Assembly: GCF_012927185.1 (NCBI RefSeq)
Contig: NZ_JABBGB010000003.1
Span: forward strand, 682,001 to 746,000
DNA length: 64,000 nucleotides
Source: Pseudoflavitalea sp. G-6-1-2
Lineage (GTDB): Bacteria > Bacteroidota > Bacteroidia > Chitinophagales > Chitinophagaceae
Direction: 5' to 3'
Part shown: one piece after another, positions 55,754-62,620 of the stretch
How positions within the stretch are numbered: position 1 is the stretch's first letter
Layout of the letters: every line of letters begins with the position of its first letter
The notes under the pieces: generated by a model
What the model saw: the letters and a program-made list of their open reading frames with translations, nothing else
Told to the model about the DNA's origin: nothing
Databases searched by the model: none
Program-made: the position numbers and the translations under genes

Positions 55754-56317
55754 ATGCATGATATCGAACCATTTTACAATTGGCGTCACATCTATACAAG
55801 TGAGCAGGATGAACGGAGCCCGTTCTACGGACGCGTATACTCGGAGTTTGAATTCACTCAAACCGTTTACAATTATTACATCCATCCGCAGTGGGATGAT
55901 TTCGGTAGCCGTACCATGTATCTTAAAACACTGATGGTAGATTATGATGAACATTATGCCATCATCGAACTGATAGGAGAGTGGAATGATGCCATCGAAA
56001 ATGATATCATGGAACTCAAACGCGAAGTAGCGGATCCATTCATCTACGAAGGCATCACCAAATTCATTCTCATCGCAGAGAACGTACTCAACTTCCACAG
56101 TAGTGATAAAGAATATTACGAAGAATGGTTCGACGAAGTAACTGATGAAAACGGATGGGTGGTGATACTCAACATGCCCGAACAAACACAGCACGATTTC
56201 AAACGCGCCAAACTCCATCGTTTCTTCGAACTCAAAGAACTCGATAACTGGCGTACCTACAAGCCTTTCCACCTCTTCAGGAAGATAGATGAAGAAATGA
56301 CGAACCGTCTCGATTAA
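55754..56317 (+). CDS. Conserved protein of unknown function
   Basis: A protein of 187 residues, acidic, rich in aromatic residues, with no signal or membrane segment. It starts MHDIEPFYNWRHIYTSEQDERSPFYGR. Other stretches are FTQTVYNYYIHPQWDDFGSRTMYLKTLMVDY, IYEGITKFILIAENVLNFHSSDKEYYEEWF and a C-terminus LDNWRTYKPFHLFRKIDEEMTNRLD. I recall near-identical hypothetical proteins across Bacteroidota but no function. It lies 88 bases after murQ and 102 before the pheA leader; it may be co-transcribed with murQ. Confidence 0.75.
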   Translation: MHDIEPFYNWRHIYTSEQDERSPFYGRVYSEFEFTQTVYNYYIHPQWDDFGSRTMYLKTLMVDYDEHYAIIELIGEWNDAIENDIMELKREVADPFIYEGITKFILIAENVLNFHSSDKEYYEEWFDEVTDENGWVVILNMPEQTQHDFKRAKLHRFFELKELDNWRTYKPFHLFRKIDEEMTNRLD

Positions 56318-56384: not shown

Positions 56385-56414
56385 TTTGCGTTTCGCGTTT
56401 TGTGATTACTTTTG
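56385..56414 (+). promoter_or_regulatory. Promoter of the pheA leader (TTTG, 18 bases, TACTTTTG)
   Basis: TTTG at 56385-56388 and TACTTTTG at 56407-56414 give both Bacteroidota promoter elements with near-standard spacing. Transcription would start about 56418-56420, at or just before the leader ATG, so the leader peptide message is almost leaderless. Confidence 0.7.
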
Positions 56415-56419
56415 ATTCA

Positions 56420-56509
56420 ATGAACATCAACAAGGCATACGGATTCTTTTATTTTAGCTTTTACTACTTTAGAAGGTGGCCGGGAATGCTTTTGTTGAAA
56501 ACAAACTAG
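56420..56509 (+). CDS. Phe/Tyr-rich leader peptide of the pheA operon (29 aa)
   Basis: A complete frame: ATG at 56420, TAG at 56507-56509. The peptide begins MNINKAYGFFYFSFYYFRRW and continues PGMLLLKTN. Eleven consecutive residues, YGFFYFSFYYF, include five Phe and four Tyr, the end products of the downstream pheA-tyrA operon. It begins 6 bases after a well-formed -7 box, and an intrinsic terminator follows 23 bases after its stop. This is the standard architecture of a ribosome-mediated attenuator leader such as E. coli pheL, and such a run of aromatic codons is hard to explain otherwise. The peptide itself is probably not needed. Confidence 0.85.
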   Translation: MNINKAYGFFYFSFYYFRRWPGMLLLKTN

Positions 56510-56564
56510 AAATAAAAAAATCAACATAAAGAGTCCCGGCCGAAAAGCCGGGACTTTTGTTTTT
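56478..56564 (+). promoter_or_regulatory. Transcription attenuator: antiterminator and terminator in front of pheA
   Basis: GGCCGGGA (56478-56485), inside the leader peptide frame just after the aromatic codons, is the exact complement of TCCCGGCC (56534-56541). That second stretch is also the left arm of the terminator hairpin. The two structures are mutually exclusive. A ribosome stalled on the Phe/Tyr codons would leave 56478-56485 free to form the antiterminator; a ribosome reading on would let the terminator form. A small A/T-rich hairpin (TTTGTT 56491-56496 with AACAAA 56500-56505) between them may act as a polymerase pause. The mechanism is inferred from sequence and from known pheA/trp attenuators. 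Confidence 0.78.
56532..56564 (+). terminator. Intrinsic terminator between leader peptide and pheA
   Basis: AGTCCCGGC (56532-56540) pairs with GCCGGGACT (56547-56555) over CGAAAA, followed by TTTTGTTTTT. It lies upstream of pheA and within its operon, as expected for an attenuator. Confidence 0.92.
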
Positions 56565-56589
56565 ACTAATCACTACAGATCAGTCTGAT

Positions 56590-57420
56590 ATGGCAAAAGT
56601 CTCGATACAAGGATACGAAGGCAGTTTTCATCAGGTAGCAGCCCAGCAATACTTCGGCAAAGACGTAGAAGTGATACCCTGCGCCACTTTCCGTGAAGTA
56701 GTTAAGATCGCCGGCAACAAAAAAGAAAGTGATGGCGGACTCATGGCCATCGAAAATTCCATCGCCGGAAGCATCCTCCCCAACTACAGCTTACTGCAGA
56801 AAAGCAATCTTCAGATTGTTGGAGAAGTTTATCTTCCTATTAAACAACACCTGCTGGTTAATCCCGGCGTGAAGCTCGAAGATATCCGCGAAGTACACAG
56901 CCATCACATGGCTATTCAGCAATGTTTGGAGTACTTAGATAAGTTCGACTGGAAACTCGTAGAAACCGAAGACACAGCCCTCAGCGCAAAAAAACTGCAT
57001 CAGCATAAAAGCAAACATATTGCGGCCATCGCCAGCAAACTCGCTGCAGATCTGTTTGAGCTGGATGTTATCACACCAAACATCCACACCATGAAAAGCA
57101 ATTACACCCGTTTTCTGGTGATCAAACGGCCAGACACAGCCGAAGTTGTCGAAGATGCGAACAAAGCATCTGTGAACTTCAACACCGATCACTCAAGAGG
57201 CAGCCTTGCACGCGTGCTTACCCGCATCGCAGATGGTGGCATCAACCTCAGCAAACTGCAAAGCTTCCCCATTCCCGGAAGCGACTGGCAGTACAGCTTT
57301 CATGCAGATATGGAATTCGAAACCCTGCAGCAATTCGAAGACGTGATCAATGAAATAACACCTATCACAACCGAACTCAAAGTATACGGAGTTTACAAAA
57401 AAGGCAAAGCGATCGTATGA
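56590..57420 (+). CDS. pheA: Prephenate dehydratase
   Basis: A protein of 276 residues from the ATG at 56590 (MAKVSIQGYEGSFH). The catalytic domain (~1-185) has YEGSFHQVAAQQYFG, MAIENSIAGSILPNYSLL, VHSHHMAIQQCLEYLDKFDW and the signature TRF in SNYTRFLVIKR. The ACT domain (~195-275) is RGSLARVLTRIADGGINLSKLQSFPIPG, the site of phenylalanine feedback inhibition. It is a stand-alone dehydratase with no fused chorismate mutase; that activity is fused to DAHP synthase downstream. It converts prephenate to phenylpyruvate. The gene overlaps the next one by 4 bases (ATGA) and is preceded by an attenuator. Frame extension upstream to 56557 would enter the terminator tail and is rejected. Confidence 0.95.
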   Translation: MAKVSIQGYEGSFHQVAAQQYFGKDVEVIPCATFREVVKIAGNKKESDGGLMAIENSIAGSILPNYSLLQKSNLQIVGEVYLPIKQHLLVNPGVKLEDIREVHSHHMAIQQCLEYLDKFDWKLVETEDTALSAKKLHQHKSKHIAAIASKLAADLFELDVITPNIHTMKSNYTRFLVIKRPDTAEVVEDANKASVNFNTDHSRGSLARVLTRIADGGINLSKLQSFPIPGSDWQYSFHADMEFETLQQFEDVINEITPITTELKVYGVYKKGKAIV

Positions 57421-58616
57421 TAACTACATCCAAAAGATTAGAAGGAATCGGTGAATACTATTTCTCTCAGAAACTGAGGGAGATCGAAGGCCTCAACCAG
57501 CAGGGCAAACAGATCATCAACCTGGGCATCGGCAGTCCTGATCTACCGCCGCATCCCGATGTGATCCGCACCCTGCAGGAAGAAAGCGCCAAGCCCAATG
57601 TGCATGCTTACCAATCTTACAAAGGATCTCCTGTGCTGCGCAAAGCAGTGGCAGACTGGTATGCGCAGTGGTACGGTGTAACACTTAATCCCGATACCGA
57701 GATACTGCCGCTGATCGGCAGCAAAGAAGGCATCATGCACATTTGCATGACCTATCTCGATGCAGGCGATATGGCCCTCATTCCCAATCCCGGTTATCCT
57801 ACCTATAGCAGCGCCGTGAAACTCGCAGGCGGAACAACGGTTCCATACGAGCTCACAGAAGCCAACGACTGGTACCCCGATTTCGAAGCATTGAGCAAGC
57901 AGGTAACTGCGTTGAATGCTGCCGGTAAGGGCACAGTGAAACTCATGTGGGTGAACTATCCGCAGATGCCAACCGGCAAACTGCCCGATGCCAACCTCTT
58001 CACAAAACTGGTAGCATTCGGCAAAGCACACAACATTCTTATTTGTCACGATAACCCGTACAGCTTTATTCTCAACGATTCTCCAATGAGCCTGCTCAGC
58101 ATCGAAGGTGCCAAAGACATCGCACTCGAACTGAACAGCCTCAGCAAATCGCAGAACATGGCAGGATGGAGAGTGGGCACACTCAGCGGCTCCAAAGAAC
58201 GCATCGAAGAAGTGCTGCGTTTCAAAAGCAATATGGACAGTGGCATGTTCCTTCCGCTGCAACTCGCAGCAGCAAAGGCTTTGGGCTTACCCAAATCGTG
58301 GTACGAAGAAGTGAATGCTACTTATCGCAAGCGCAGAGTGAAAGTATTCGAACTGCTCAGTCTGCTCGATTGCGTGTTCGACCAAAACCAGGCTGGCATG
58401 TTCGTATGGGCTAAGATCCCTGCGGGATATAAAGACGGATTTGCACTCAGCGATGAAGTGCTCTACAATGCCAACGTGTTCATCACACCGGGTGGCATCT
58501 TCGGAAACGCAGGTGATCCCTATGTGCGCGTGAGCCTCTGCAGCAGCGAAGAAAAACTCGCAGAGAGCATACAGCGTGTGCAGCATTTTTTATCAACAGC
58601 AAAAGTTTCTCAATAG
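57417..58616 (+). CDS. Class I/II aminotransferase of the aromatic operon
   Basis: A protein of 399 residues, fold-type I PLP enzyme. It has the N-terminal arm KRLEGIGEYYFSQKLREI, then IINLGIGSPDLPPHPDVI, YQSYKGSPVLRKAVADWYAQWYGV, LIGSKEGIMHICMTYLDAGD and CHDNPYSFILND. The PLP lysine is in ELNSLSKSQNMAGWRVGTLSG and the substrate carboxylate-binding Arg in YVRVSLCSSEEKL. It sits between pheA and tyrA with a 4-base overlap and a 1-base gap, so it most likely transaminates phenylpyruvate and 4-hydroxyphenylpyruvate (or prephenate) in the last step of Phe and Tyr synthesis. The wording also resembles LL-diaminopimelate aminotransferase relatives; context favours the aromatic role. Confidence 0.88.
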   Translation: MITTSKRLEGIGEYYFSQKLREIEGLNQQGKQIINLGIGSPDLPPHPDVIRTLQEESAKPNVHAYQSYKGSPVLRKAVADWYAQWYGVTLNPDTEILPLIGSKEGIMHICMTYLDAGDMALIPNPGYPTYSSAVKLAGGTTVPYELTEANDWYPDFEALSKQVTALNAAGKGTVKLMWVNYPQMPTGKLPDANLFTKLVAFGKAHNILICHDNPYSFILNDSPMSLLSIEGAKDIALELNSLSKSQNMAGWRVGTLSGSKERIEEVLRFKSNMDSGMFLPLQLAAAKALGLPKSWYEEVNATYRKRRVKVFELLSLLDCVFDQNQAGMFVWAKIPAGYKDGFALSDEVLYNANVFITPGGIFGNAGDPYVRVSLCSSEEKLAESIQRVQHFLSTAKVSQ

Positions 58617-58617
58617 C

Positions 58618-59466
58618 ATGTTCAATGCAGTAACCATAGTAGGAGTGGGGTTGATTGGAGGAAGCTTCAGTCTCGCCCTCAAGAATCTCGGCCTCACCAA
58701 AAAAGTGATTGGTGTGAGCCGCACAAAAGCCAGCGAGCTGAAAGCGCTCGAACTGGGATTGATCGATGAGGCCATGAGCCTCGAAGACGCAGTGCGCAAC
58801 AGCGATCTCATTTATGTAGCCATCCCCGTAGACACTACCATTCCGGTAATGAAACAGATCATGGATCTGGTAACCGATCAGCAGATCGTAGTGGATGCAG
58901 GCTCTACAAAAATGGCCCTCTGCGAGTCGCTCCATAATCATCCGATGCGCCATCGTTTTGTAGCAAGCCATCCGATGTGGGGTACGGAGTATAGCGGCCC
59001 CGAAGCCGCAGTACAGGATGCTTTCACAGGAAGAACCTGCGTGATCTGTGAAAAAGATAAATCAGACGCAGCAGCTGTAGAAAAAGTAGAGAATGTATAC
59101 CGCCAGCTGGGTATGCGCATGACATACATGGATGCAGACAGTCACGATATGCACGCCGCATACGTGAGTCATATTTCACATATCACATCCTTCGCCCTCG
59201 CCAATACGGTGCTGGAGAAGGAGAAAGAGGAAGATGCCATTTTTGAACTGGCGGGTGGTGGTTTTGAAAGCACGGTGAGACTGGCTAAAAGTAACCCTGC
59301 CATGTGGGTGCCCATCTTCATGCAGAACAAAGATCATGTGCTCGATGTGCTCAATGAACATATCAGCCAGTTGAGAAAATTCAAAAGTTGCCTCGAAAAG
59401 GAGAACTTTGAATACCTGCAGGAACTGATTGAGCAGGCCAACAAAATCAAAAGGATCATCAAATGA
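58618..59466 (+). CDS. tyrA: Prephenate dehydrogenase
   Basis: A protein of 282 residues from the ATG at 58618, one base after the aminotransferase stop. The Rossmann loop is TIVGVGLIGGSFSLALK with KVIGVSRTKAS. The catalytic His lies in RFVASHPMWGTEYSGPEAA, and the helical dimer domain carries DADSHDMHAAYVSHISHITSFALANTVLE and FESTVRLAKSNPAMWVPIF. It has no ACT domain and no fused mutase. It makes 4-hydroxyphenylpyruvate from prephenate with NAD. It overlaps the next small gene by 4 bases. Confidence 0.94.
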   Translation: MFNAVTIVGVGLIGGSFSLALKNLGLTKKVIGVSRTKASELKALELGLIDEAMSLEDAVRNSDLIYVAIPVDTTIPVMKQIMDLVTDQQIVVDAGSTKMALCESLHNHPMRHRFVASHPMWGTEYSGPEAAVQDAFTGRTCVICEKDKSDAAAVEKVENVYRQLGMRMTYMDADSHDMHAAYVSHISHITSFALANTVLEKEKEEDAIFELAGGGFESTVRLAKSNPAMWVPIFMQNKDHVLDVLNEHISQLRKFKSCLEKENFEYLQELIEQANKIKRIIK

Positions 59467-59748: not shown

Positions 59749-61437
59749 ATGACGACTTTCGACGCATTGGGTTTGGATGCGAGATTGGTACAGGCTACCG
59801 ATGCACTTGGCTACAAAAACCCAACACCTATACAGGAACAAGCGATTCCTGTTCTGCTTAGCGGCACCAAGGATTTGGTGGGCCTGGCACAAACTGGTAC
59901 GGGTAAAACAGCTGCATTCGGTTTACCCCTGTTACACCTGATCGATGAGAAGCAGAAATTCCCCCAGGCGCTGGTTGTTTGTCCTACCAGAGAGCTGTGC
60001 CTTCAAATTGTGAATGAGATGGAACAGTTCAAGCAATTCATACCAGGCATGTTTGTAGCTGCCGTGTATGGAGGAACTTCTATCGGGCAACAGATCCGCG
60101 AACTTAAAAGAGGCGTTCAGATTGTAGTGGCCACACCAGGCCGTCTGATCGACCTGATTGAACGAAAAGCAATTAATCTGGAAGAGATCAAATATGTGGT
60201 GCTCGATGAGGCAGATGAAATGCTGAACATGGGATTCAAGGAAGACATTGAATTCATTCTGCAGAATACGCCCAACCGCGGCGCCACCTGGCTGTTCAGC
60301 GCTACCATGCCACCTGAGATCAAGCGTGTAAGCAAACGCTACATGAAAGAACCTTTCGAGATCACGGTAGGCAAAGTGAACACAGCCAATAAAAACATCG
60401 ACCACCAGTATTACATCACATCGGCCCAGTACAGATATCAGGCATTGAAACGACTGATCGATTTCAATCCCGGCATCTACGGTATCATCTTTACCCGTAC
60501 AAAAGCAGATGCGCAGGACATTGCAGAGAAACTTACCCGTGAGGGATACGATATCGATGCATTGCACGGAGATCTCACGCAGCAGCAGCGCGACAAAGTG
60601 ATGGGCGAATTCCGCGAAAAAACTTTGCAGTTGCTCATTGCTACCGACGTAGCAGCGAGAGGTATCGATGTGAAAGACATCACGCACGTTATCAATTACG
60701 AACTGCCCGACGATGTTGAGGTGTACACACACCGCAGCGGCCGTACAGGCAGAGCCGGTAACACAGGTATCTGTATGTCTATCATACATGCACGTGAAAC
60801 AGGCAAAATGCGTCAGATCCAATCCATTGTTCAGTCTCCGTTCCACAAACTGGAGATCCCAAGCGGAAAGGATGTTTGCCGCAAGCAGTTCTACCACTTT
60901 ATGGACAAACTGCTGCAAACCGATATCAGCCATGGAGGATACGAAACCTATGTTCCGATGCTCGAAGAGAAATTCGCAGACATCACCAAGGAAGAGATCC
61001 TGAAACGCCTGGCAGCCATGGAATTCGACAGATTCCTCAAATACTACGAGAATGCCGAAGACCTCAACGTTCGCGAAATCAAACGCGGAGAAAGAGGCGA
61101 ACGACCAAATGATCGTGGAAGATTTGAGCGTGGTGGCGAAAGAGGTGGAGATGGCCGCCGCGATACCAGAGGACGCACATTCGGTGGCGGTGGCGATTAC
61201 GCACGCCTCTTTGTGAACCTCGGAACCAAAGACGGATTCTACAAAGCCAGCTTCCTTCAGTTTATTCTCGATATGAGCGATCTCCGCAAAGAGGTGCTCG
61301 GAAGAATCGATATGAAAGAAATGAATAGCTGGATCGAAATCGATAAAGGCGCTGCGCAGCAAATGATCCGCGCTATCGACGGTAAAAATTACCGCGGAAG
61401 AAAGATCAGAATGAACGACGCAGACAGCAGACGATAA
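59749..61437 (+). CDS. DEAD-box RNA helicase with DbpA-type RNA-binding domain
   Basis: A protein of 562 residues. The Q motif and motif I are YKNPTPIQEQAIPVLLSG and AQTGTGKTAAF, motif II is VLDEADEMLNMGF, motif III is FSATMP, and motifs V and VI are LIATDVAARGIDVKDITHVINYELPDDVEVYTHRSGRTGRAG. The core spans ~1-370. A linker rich in Arg/Gly (~440-480) leads to a C-terminal DbpA/CsdA-like RRM (~485-555, YARLFVNLGTKDGFYKASFLQFILD ... RKIRMND). It likely works in ribosome assembly or cold-stress RNA unwinding. It sits inside the aromatic gene cluster but with its own promoter. Confidence 0.95.
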   Translation: MTTFDALGLDARLVQATDALGYKNPTPIQEQAIPVLLSGTKDLVGLAQTGTGKTAAFGLPLLHLIDEKQKFPQALVVCPTRELCLQIVNEMEQFKQFIPGMFVAAVYGGTSIGQQIRELKRGVQIVVATPGRLIDLIERKAINLEEIKYVVLDEADEMLNMGFKEDIEFILQNTPNRGATWLFSATMPPEIKRVSKRYMKEPFEITVGKVNTANKNIDHQYYITSAQYRYQALKRLIDFNPGIYGIIFTRTKADAQDIAEKLTREGYDIDALHGDLTQQQRDKVMGEFREKTLQLLIATDVAARGIDVKDITHVINYELPDDVEVYTHRSGRTGRAGNTGICMSIIHARETGKMRQIQSIVQSPFHKLEIPSGKDVCRKQFYHFMDKLLQTDISHGGYETYVPMLEEKFADITKEEILKRLAAMEFDRFLKYYENAEDLNVREIKRGERGERPNDRGRFERGGERGGDGRRDTRGRTFGGGGDYARLFVNLGTKDGFYKASFLQFILDMSDLRKEVLGRIDMKEMNSWIEIDKGAAQQMIRAIDGKNYRGRKIRMNDADSRR

Positions 61438-61531: not shown

Positions 61532-62620
61532 ATGACAAGTACAGAAACAACCATGAAGGAAACAGTGCAGGCAGCATGGAACAAACGCCCCCTGATCATC
61601 TCAGGCCCCTGCAGCGCAGAAACCGAAGAGCAGGTAATTGAAACAGCACAACAGCTGGCCAAAACAGGTAAGGTAGACATGCTTCGCGCCGGTATCTGGA
61701 AACCCCGCACCCGTCCCGGCAGCTTTGAAGGGATCGGTACCAAAGGTCTCCCATGGATGCAGCAGGCAAGAAAACTCACCGGCCTCCCTATCACTGTAGA
61801 AGTAGCAACCGCCAAACAGGTGGAAGACGCTCTTCACTTCGATGTGGATGTTCTGTGGATCGGCGCCCGCACCACTGTTAACCCCTTCAGCGTACAGGAA
61901 GTTGCTGATGCACTCAAAGGCACCAACGTTCCCGTACTGATCAAGAACCCCATCAATCCCGACCTCGAATTATGGACCGGTGCAGTTGAGCGCGTGGCAA
62001 AAGCAGGCATCGATCAGATCGGCCTCATCCACCGCGGATTCAGCGCATACGGCAACTCGGAATACCGCAATGCCCCCATGTGGCACCTCGCTATCGAGAT
62101 GAAACGCCGCCATCCGAATATGCCTTTCATCAACGATCCTTCGCATATCTGCGGAAGAAGAGATATTCTGCTCGATGTGATGCAGAAGGCAATCGACCTC
62201 GACTACGATGGTTTCATCATCGAATCACATATCGACCCCGACAAAGCATGGAGCGATGCCAAACAACAGGTTACTCCTGAGCGTCTCACAGAAATGCTCA
62301 ACTCGATTGTTTGGAGAAATGAAGATTCCAGCTCCGAAGAGTTCCACGCAGCGCTCGAAAAACTCCGTCAGCAGATCAACCACCTGGATGATGAACTGAT
62401 GCAGATTCTCGGTCAGCGCATGAAAGTGGCAGAACAGATCGGTCTCTACAAAAAGAACAACCAGATCACCATTCTGCAAACCAACCGCTGGAACGAAATC
62501 CTCGAACGCGCATTCAAACAAGGTGATAAGATCGGCCTCAGCAAAGAATTCATCACCAAGTATTTTGATGCCGTACACATGGAAAGTATCAACCACCAGA
62601 ACAAGATCATGAACGCATAA
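61532..62620 (+). CDS. DAHP synthase / chorismate mutase fusion
   Basis: A protein of 362 residues. Residues ~15-265 are a type I-beta DAHP synthase: PLIISGPCSAETEEQVIETAQQL, DMLRAGIWKPRTRPGSFEG, VDVLWIGARTTVNPFSVQEVADAL, LIHRGFSAYG, PFINDPSHICGRRDILLDV and GFIIESHIDPD. Residues ~275-362 are an AroQ-type chorismate mutase (LEKLRQQINHLDDELMQILGQRMKVAEQIGLYKKNNQI). The fusion catalyses the first shikimate step and the chorismate-to-prephenate step, and mutase-domain binding of prephenate usually regulates it. It supplies the substrate of pheA and tyrA in the same cluster. Confidence 0.95.
   Translation: MTSTETTMKETVQAAWNKRPLIISGPCSAETEEQVIETAQQLAKTGKVDMLRAGIWKPRTRPGSFEGIGTKGLPWMQQARKLTGLPITVEVATAKQVEDALHFDVDVLWIGARTTVNPFSVQEVADALKGTNVPVLIKNPINPDLELWTGAVERVAKAGIDQIGLIHRGFSAYGNSEYRNAPMWHLAIEMKRRHPNMPFINDPSHICGRRDILLDVMQKAIDLDYDGFIIESHIDPDKAWSDAKQQVTPERLTEMLNSIVWRNEDSSSEEFHAALEKLRQQINHLDDELMQILGQRMKVAEQIGLYKKNNQITILQTNRWNEILERAFKQGDKIGLSKEFITKYFDAVHMESINHQNKIMNA

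Follow-up and report, generated by a model that had tools for sequence, protein, structure and literature searches.

A probable phenylalanine and tyrosine leader-peptide attenuator upstream of pheA in Pseudoflavitalea sp. G-6-1-2 and related Bacteroidota

Background

Leader-peptide attenuators have been described in Proteobacteria, Actinobacteria and some Firmicutes, and the element analysed here, which lies upstream of pheA in Pseudoflavitalea sp. G-6-1-2 (Bacteroidota; Chitinophagaceae), shares their working principle. In 2010, the authors of a Firmicutes case stated, in the part of their paper considered here, that, as far as they were aware, only Proteobacteria and Actinobacteria had provided demonstrated cases before their own (PMC2965389). 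Within Bacteroidota, the parts considered of a 2021 study of Flavobacterium psychrophilum (PMC9723704) describe structured 5' elements upstream of pheA, hisG and other genes, which are conserved in Flavobacteriaceae and have no Rfam match, and report strong signs that leader peptides attenuate amino-acid operons. Our literature search found no title or abstract on a phenylalanine (Phe)/tyrosine (Tyr) leader in Chitinophagaceae; related predictions may exist in Lopatovskaya 2010 and Vitreschak 2004.

The stretch of DNA analysed, hereafter the window, comprises 64,000 nucleotides (nt) of contig NZ_JABBGB010000003.1 (assembly GCF_012927185.1, positions 682,001 to 746,000 of the forward strand), and coordinates are those of the window unless another locus is named. 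A first-pass annotation, made from the letters alone, had proposed a Phe/Tyr attenuator in front of pheA. The leader, the terminator, the antiterminator and the covariation in relatives support this proposal, and we conclude that the region is very probably an attenuator that acts on transcription through the ribosome, senses Phe and Tyr and precedes the pheA operon.

Results

Anatomy of the leader region

All the features of the region lie on the + strand. The promoter is of the Bacteroidota type, with a -33 element TTTG (56385-56388) and, 18 nt further on, a -7 box TACTTTTG (56407-56414; consensus TAnnTTTG). The leader ATG follows at 56420, 5 nt past the box, and opens a reading frame of 29 codons (56420-56509), MNINKAYGFFYFSFYYFRRWPGMLLLKTN, which was delimited from the sequence and its relatives and has nine Phe/Tyr codons in 11 (YGFFYFSFYYF, from Tyr7 to Phe17; 56438-56470). 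Promoter, frame and aromatic block are just as the first-pass annotation had described them. Arm 2 (56478-56498), defined by complementarity, fold and alignment, lies within this leader open reading frame (ORF), and its 8-base core GGCCGGGA (56478-56485) is, again as described before, the exact complement of TCCCGGCC (56534-56541), the core of arm 3 (56521-56541; complementarity and alignment), which is the left side of both the antiterminator and the terminator. The intrinsic terminator that had been noted before pheA is likewise present, as a hairpin 3:4 (56529-56558; terminator script and alignment) with 9-base arms at 56532-56540 and 56547-56555, or 12 pairs if the outer A-U and G-U pairs are counted, and with a T-rich tract (56555-56564) whose end is 25 nt short of the pheA ATG at 56590.

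The first-pass annotation called the attenuator complete, which is correct once a further helix, absent from its description, is counted. In this helix 1:2, supported by fold, shuffles and alignment, the presumed protector, arm 1 (56427-56438), has as its partner the 3' portion of arm 2 (56486-56498). Similarly, the 8-base-pair (bp) core given for the antiterminator stands and its length does not, since the pairing of 2:3 extends past the core with 56489-56492 against 56528-56531 and 56493-56498 against 56521-56526, and so runs on to 56498/56521. The 3' half of arm 2 has two possible partners, arm 1 or the segment 56521-56531 adjoining the 8-bp core. As arm 2 can pair with arm 1 or arm 3, and arm 3 with arm 2 or arm 4, the region follows the standard attenuator logic. 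The leader strand folds with a z-score of -4.46, and 0/200 shuffles were equally stable.

Downstream of the terminator are pheA itself, encoding prephenate dehydratase (56590-57420, +; PF00800, E 3.4e-56), a class I/II aminotransferase gene (57417-58616, +; PF00155) and tyrA, encoding prephenate dehydrogenase (58576-59466, +; NF006307 over its cut-off, PF02153/PF20463), for which the ATG near 58618 is the more likely start. The products of the operon are thus makers of the amino acids specified by the control codons of the leader.

Conservation of the leader and its codons

For comparison we used 110 pheA relatives, 80 from the contig set and 30 from whole family genomes, with the genome of the window included; these are the best-scoring pheA relatives and not a random sample, the even sample being a set of 195 family genomes. 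By script scan, 108 of the 110 loci have a leader rich in F/Y codons (6-10 of 11 aromatic), so that the aromatic codons are conserved in the relatives; the two exceptions are L075, whose contig begins inside pheA, and L080, which has no leader. The 108 leaders reduce to 100 that are distinct by leader with flanks and to 97 that are distinct by leader ORF. A simple script found the terminator in 99 of the 100; the hundredth, L078, matches our covariance model at 47.4 bits and is omitted from all counts made on 99 rows.

In the aromatic block of the 97 distinct leaders, 510 of 512 TTN codons are TTY (Phe) and 354 of 354 TAN codons are TAY (Tyr), TAA and TAG being excluded by the way the ORFs were constructed, and the third positions of the Phe and Tyr codons vary between T and C. 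Each leader has at least two Phe and at least two Tyr codons in the block. In 64/99 leaders the aromatic codons begin at codon 7. Arm 2 lies inside the leader ORF in 97/99, and the stop codon ends at a median distance of 20 nt beyond it. By eye, the leaders fall into two subtypes, with a C-terminus that is PGMLLL-like or SSRVVFVKA-like. Since the subtypes differ in the extensions of arms 1, 2 and 3 around a common CCGGG core, it seems that in the C-terminal region the RNA has been kept rather than the peptide.

Pairing and covariation of the three helices

When the pairing was compared with 100 shuffles for each leader, the longest exact complement between arms 2 and 3 was equalled by no more than 5 shuffles in 86/99, the duplex energy of 2:3 in 96/99 (68/70 + 28/29) and that of 1:2 in 76/99 (57/70 + 19/29). 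Covariation was measured on a 99-row alignment (A1) by five measures against 500 shuffles, with slid-partner controls; many rows come from close relatives, so the alignment cells are not independent. Helices 2:3, 3:4 and 1:2 each beat 500/500 shuffles in cells paired, in double-change cells and in covariation score, and the score of each was the highest among its slid versions. The double-change cells numbered 66 for 2:3 against a shuffled mean of 34.9, 44 against 12.0 for 3:4 and 91 against 55.2 for 1:2. In the case of 3:4, the pairs with a double change and the further pair types were both matched by 0/500 shuffles. Arm 2 tracks arm 3 in individual loci, as CGGGGG/CCCCCG in L100, AGCGGGATT/AATCCCGCT in L036 and GCCAGGATT/AATCCTGGC in L019. 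By parsimony on the pheA tree, there were at least 36 switches of pair type in 2:3, at least 28 in 3:4 and at least 28 in 1:2; the values for 2:3 and 3:4 are higher than those for slid partners (18-27 and 2-14, respectively). The alternative pairing proposed for the window is therefore conserved in the relatives, with 96/99 antiterminators passing the shuffle test and covariation in both 2:3 and 3:4, and the comparative support for helix 1:2 is weaker than that for the other two. RNAalifold, run on a subset alignment (A2), returned only 7 terminator pairs, with arm 3 misaligned by one base in some rows, and A1 was preferred.

Spread in the family and the phylum

Our covariance model (R1) was built from A1, whose rows include family members, and its scan of the family measures spread, not independent discovery. 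In its own genome of 6.1 Mb the window gives one strong match, at 142 bits; the next match, at 39.8 bits (L141), is by sequence an ordinary GC-rich terminator. In the even sample, R1 matches 124/195 genomes at E <= 1e-4, and pheA was detected in 133/195. A match lies no more than 400 nt upstream of pheA, on the same strand, in 120 of these 133, and 122 of the 128 matches in the sample are so placed. Two matches, G031 and G071:C14, showed no Phe/Tyr leader and were taken as false.

Across the phylum, 87/296 genomes match at E <= 0.01, a permissive cut-off that lets in false matches. Among the best 30 of these matches, which were inspected, 25 are before pheA, four before a DAHP synthase gene and one before a hisG-like gene; the four DAHP synthase calls were made on 50-residue stretches, one of which is over the PF00793 cut-off and three under it. 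The last of the 30 is locus L172 (G443; in the phylum, outside the class), where a His leader, MKINLTLHHAHHHLIFLMKASM, precedes a gene that we take to be hisG from the start of its protein. At the level of the class, the best-scoring 29 of the 42 genomes with a match were examined at their pheA loci, and a leader was found by script in 20, two of them from the same family, and not in the other nine. Judged by these comparisons, the same kind of device recurs throughout Chitinophagaceae and in other Bacteroidota families.

Some loci vary the arrangement. F/Y-rich leaders stand in tandem before pheA in L187 (G106), L135 and L114, with a terminator-like hairpin after each by eye, and G177, which may share this arrangement, has two R1 matches. 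An F/Y leader precedes a DAHP synthase-like gene in place of pheA in L169, L170, L173, L178 and L205, and G157 has one device before pheA and another before DAHP synthase.

A predicted near-leaderless start

The position of the -7 box was counted in 97 leaders, with repeated ones and those with less than 40 nt upstream left out. In 83/97, an exact TAnnTTTG has its end 4-10 nt upstream of the leader ATG, whereas 0/905 of the remaining ATGs in these stretches have one at that distance; when all ATGs of L002-L081 are counted, with those of the leaders, the figure is 137/21940. Of the 83 leaders, 44 also have the -33 TTTG, about 16-20 nt farther upstream than the box. In F. psychrophilum, the sigma-A box is placed at -12 to -5 in the part of PMC9723704 considered, and this placement gives a 5' untranslated region (UTR) of 0-6 nt across the leaders and of about 1 nt in the window, with a predicted transcription start at 56419 (+). 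Translation of the leader is thus predicted to be near-leaderless, a geometry that the first-pass annotation had pointed out in the window and that is conserved in the relatives. Among the 20 class-level leaders, three (L119, L123 and the family member L111) have the box 7-8 nt upstream of the ATG, 13 have it 17-35 nt upstream and four have none; for those outside the family, most boxes are at 18-35 nt, two are at 7-8 nt and four leaders are without one. Because the boxes outside the family are mostly farther from the ATG, the near-leaderless trait looks lineage-specific.

Leader composition and operon content

In G068 (completeness 99), no pheA was detected and the device is found before tyrA (locus L204, G068:C4:1088500-1092300, minus strand). 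Its leader, MTQYSKYYYWYYLNRITG, has six Tyr codons, one Trp codon and no Phe codon, and its arms and terminator fold as expected. None of the 108 leaders above is without Phe, and at their codon ratio six Tyr without Phe would have a naive chance of 0.003. By eye, the genes downstream of this tyrA match the DEAD-box helicase (L204 1287-2964, minus-strand coordinates) and the DAHP synthase of the window. In G049 the device precedes the aminotransferase gene and tyrA, and the pheA of this genome is on another contig without the device. It would appear that leader codon content can follow operon content, there being no Phe codons in G068 and still two in G074, discussed below. That it does so in general is not supported, in view of G074 and genus g18, and only G068 fits.

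Neighbouring genes and other leaders in the genome

Past tyrA, a DEAD-box helicase gene (59749-61437; Pfam profile search) is followed by a gene of the same pathway as the operon, encoding a DAHP synthase with a chorismate mutase domain (61532-62620, +; PF00793, PF01817). Just upstream of the attenuator, an ORF of 187 amino acids (55754-56317) had no Pfam or NCBIfam match at E <= 0.001.

The same genome has four further candidate leaders. A candidate His leader, MLQNTHIHHHHTYREVGQ (L180 1203-1259), precedes hisG and folds much better than its shuffles, and a candidate Trp leader, MTFQVINKQWWWHTNSIRGL (L181 1298-1360), precedes trpE, with a fold z-score of -7.84 and its ATG 4 nt after a -7 box TACTTTTG. 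A candidate Ile/Val-rich leader (L182 209-310), with a visible terminator and a fold z-score of -3.57, precedes a stretch that is presumably ilvE-ilvD, and a candidate Thr/Ile leader with a GTG start, TATTTTITITTT (L186 787-873), in which no clear terminator was identified, precedes what we take to be thrA. No Phe/Tyr leader was found by script at pheS (L185). These candidates suggest that the leader-peptide mode may be in general use.

Discussion

From the anatomy of the region, the conservation of its codons and pairing, and its gene context, we infer the start site, the timing, and the termination and its release as follows. Transcription would start about 1 base before the leader ATG, and a ribosome would load on the near-5'-terminal AUG. 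A shortage of charged tRNA-Phe or tRNA-Tyr would stall the ribosome early in the aromatic block, in which the first Tyr is codon 7 and the first Phe codon 9, and there it would cover arm 1; arm 2, left free, could then pair with arm 3 as the antiterminator, and the polymerase would proceed into pheA, the aminotransferase gene and tyrA. If both amino acids are plentiful, the ribosome would run through arm 2 to the stop codon and cover its 3' half, and after ribosome release, or without translation, helix 1:2 would form. Either way, arm 3 would be left for arm 4, and transcription would terminate near 56564. Masking the bases that a ribosome would cover when stalled at the first Phe or Tyr codon gave results consistent with this course of events. 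In 97 rows (L095 and L077 left out), the accessibility of arm 2 in the transcript before arm 3 rose by more than 0.1 in 86/97 for Phe and 87/97 for Tyr, with a median going from 0.22 to 0.46-0.47, and fell by more than 0.1 in 0/97. In the window, helix 1:2 is gone from the best fold under both the Phe and the Tyr stall.

A number of observations weigh against the attenuator as just described. By equilibrium partition function, in a transcript that reaches just past arm 3 this arm pairs with the ORF whether a ribosome is present or not (medians 0.85-0.94), and at full length the RNA prefers 3:4 in every state (medians 0.98-1.00). Since equilibrium folding fails to separate the states, the switch would have to be kinetic, with the order of events deciding. 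A ribosome on the stop codon leaves the 8-bp core of arm 2 uncovered; termination at that point would be secured by the loss of the 2:3 extension, plus helix 1:2 after release. The comparative evidence is also uneven. The antiterminators of L095, L047 and L077 (3/99) fail the 5-in-100 shuffle test. Helix 2:3 is matched by 9/500 shuffles in pairs with a double change and by 23/500 in further pair types, and helix 1:2 is ordinary in both (267/500 and 71/500); its 28 switches lie within the slid range of 19-39, so that the parsimony control failed for this helix. Moreover, the switches per 100 Watson-Crick cells are not raised, being 3.1 in 2:3 against 3.5-5.8 for slid partners and 3.5 in 3:4 against 1.1-4.9, and likewise not raised in 1:2, so that the parsimony gain consists in more paired cells (72% in 2:3 against 24-42% slid, 89% in 3:4 against 15-47%). 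As to distribution, 13 of the 133 pheA genomes have no adjacent R1 match; 12 of these have no R1 match at all, and the thirteenth is G049. Aromatic-rich short ORFs are present in 9 of the 11 upstream stretches from the match-free genomes (L192-L194, L196, L198-L202) and not in L195 and L197, with G151, a fragment, left out. No convincing leader could be made out at the pheA of G041, G049 and G075. Finally, in G074 (290 contigs, completeness 90), where no pheA was detected, the leader before the aminotransferase gene, MTITKTYTRVYSYFFYYALKRGML (L190), keeps two Phe codons.

It is possible, if rather unlikely, that the attenuator is real and mainly senses one amino acid, with the other codons arising by one-base drift between Phe and Tyr. 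The leaders of genus g18 (L193, L199 and L202) are Phe-dominated despite a tyrA about 2 kb downstream of their pheA in the same direction, Phe codons outnumber Tyr codons in the block (means of 5.3 and 3.6), and in the window a ribosome stalled at Phe is computed to expose arm 2 clearly (0.34 to 0.62), one stalled at Tyr only slightly (0.34 to 0.39). Against this stand the presence of both kinds of codon in 97/97 distinct leaders, at two or more each, and the Tyr codons of the tyrA-first operon of G068, with no Phe among them. The start of the leader could also have been misplaced, the true start lying upstream or the -7 box being fortuitous, which we consider improbable. Very short 5' UTRs are rare, with about 3.7% of 5' UTRs below 10 nt in Bacteroides thetaiotaomicron (PMC7366714) and 5.5% of mRNAs leaderless in F. 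psychrophilum (PMC9723704), in the parts of these papers considered; a generic sigma-70 scan gives other sites, in a number expected by chance; and the close box is found in only three of the 20 class-level leaders. On the other side stands the box at 83/97 leader ATGs and at 0/905 others.

Two other explanations would do away with the attenuator altogether. That the hairpin is a constitutive terminator of the upstream gene, and the short ORF has another role such as a trans-acting small peptide, seems very improbable to us. The upstream ORF does end about 210 nt before the terminator, and peTrpL offers a precedent for the peptide (PMC7298713, in the part considered); however, the terminator lies downstream of the promoter and the leader and directly before pheA, arm 2 changes in step with the terminator arm, and the subtypes preserve the pairing although the C-terminal part of their peptides differs. 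A ligand-binding riboswitch or T-box that contains an ORF by chance deserves hardly any credence. A structured leader ahead of a biosynthetic operon is what such an element would look like, but the conserved sequence outside the arms consists of codons, with no sign of an aptamer core, and no Rfam family reached its gathering score in 13 phylum loci. In the window, too, all Rfam matches are below threshold, 7/9 of the other families being on the minus strand, and the top-scoring one is Phe_leader (RF01859), whose 23.7 bits (E 0.14 in 601 bases) fall short of its gathering score of 55; as a positive control, E. coli pheL scores 132.3 bits with this model.

If the Phe/Tyr attenuator is accepted, Bacteroidota have a widespread RNA family that would use the ribosome to gauge the supply of Phe and Tyr and that no Rfam model detects at threshold in the tested loci. 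Such a device implies a working coupling of transcription and translation in Bacteroidota and makes this coupling directly testable, and the Tyr-only leader of G068, without a detected pheA, may be a natural experiment on codon sensing. Bacteroidota do not rely on Shine-Dalgarno starts, and the leader offers a model of near-leaderless initiation as part of a regulatory switch. A near-leaderless AUG, if true, would load the ribosome at once and fix its distance to the polymerase, implying tight coupling. It is only tentatively, and leaning slightly to the side of doubt, that we extend this to the claim that leader-peptide attenuation is a main mode of amino-acid control across Bacteroidota and that the near-leaderless AUG of Chitinophagaceae is itself functional.

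Comparison with known systems

Among known systems, E. coli pheL-pheA resembles the window in its tandem Phe codons in a leader ORF, its alternative helices and its terminator before pheA, and R1 locates pheL correctly, with a weak score (27.8 bits, E 0.018; L179 2588-2727). The E. coli leader, read by eye, has 15 codons with Phe only, whereas that of the window has 29 with Phe and Tyr; its antiterminator arm comes after the stop codon, also by eye, whereas arm 2 here is nearly always inside the ORF. Moreover, pheL starts from a Shine-Dalgarno sequence, whereas the start in the window is predicted to be near-leaderless. Leaderless poly-Cys small ORFs of mycobacteria are reportedly leader peptides as well, for another amino acid and in another phylum. 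The trpL of Sinorhizobium meliloti, in the part of PMC7298713 considered, has its 5' end at the ATG, like the predicted start in the window, and also concerns another amino acid and another phylum. Closest by gene and phylum is the pheA element of F. psychrophilum; the parts of PMC9723704 considered contain neither a leader sequence nor helices, covariation or a wider distribution for the Flavobacteriaceae element, which is probably the same device. The working principle is classical, and the Phe/Tyr device of Chitinophagaceae is a new form of it, with prior hints in Flavobacteriaceae.

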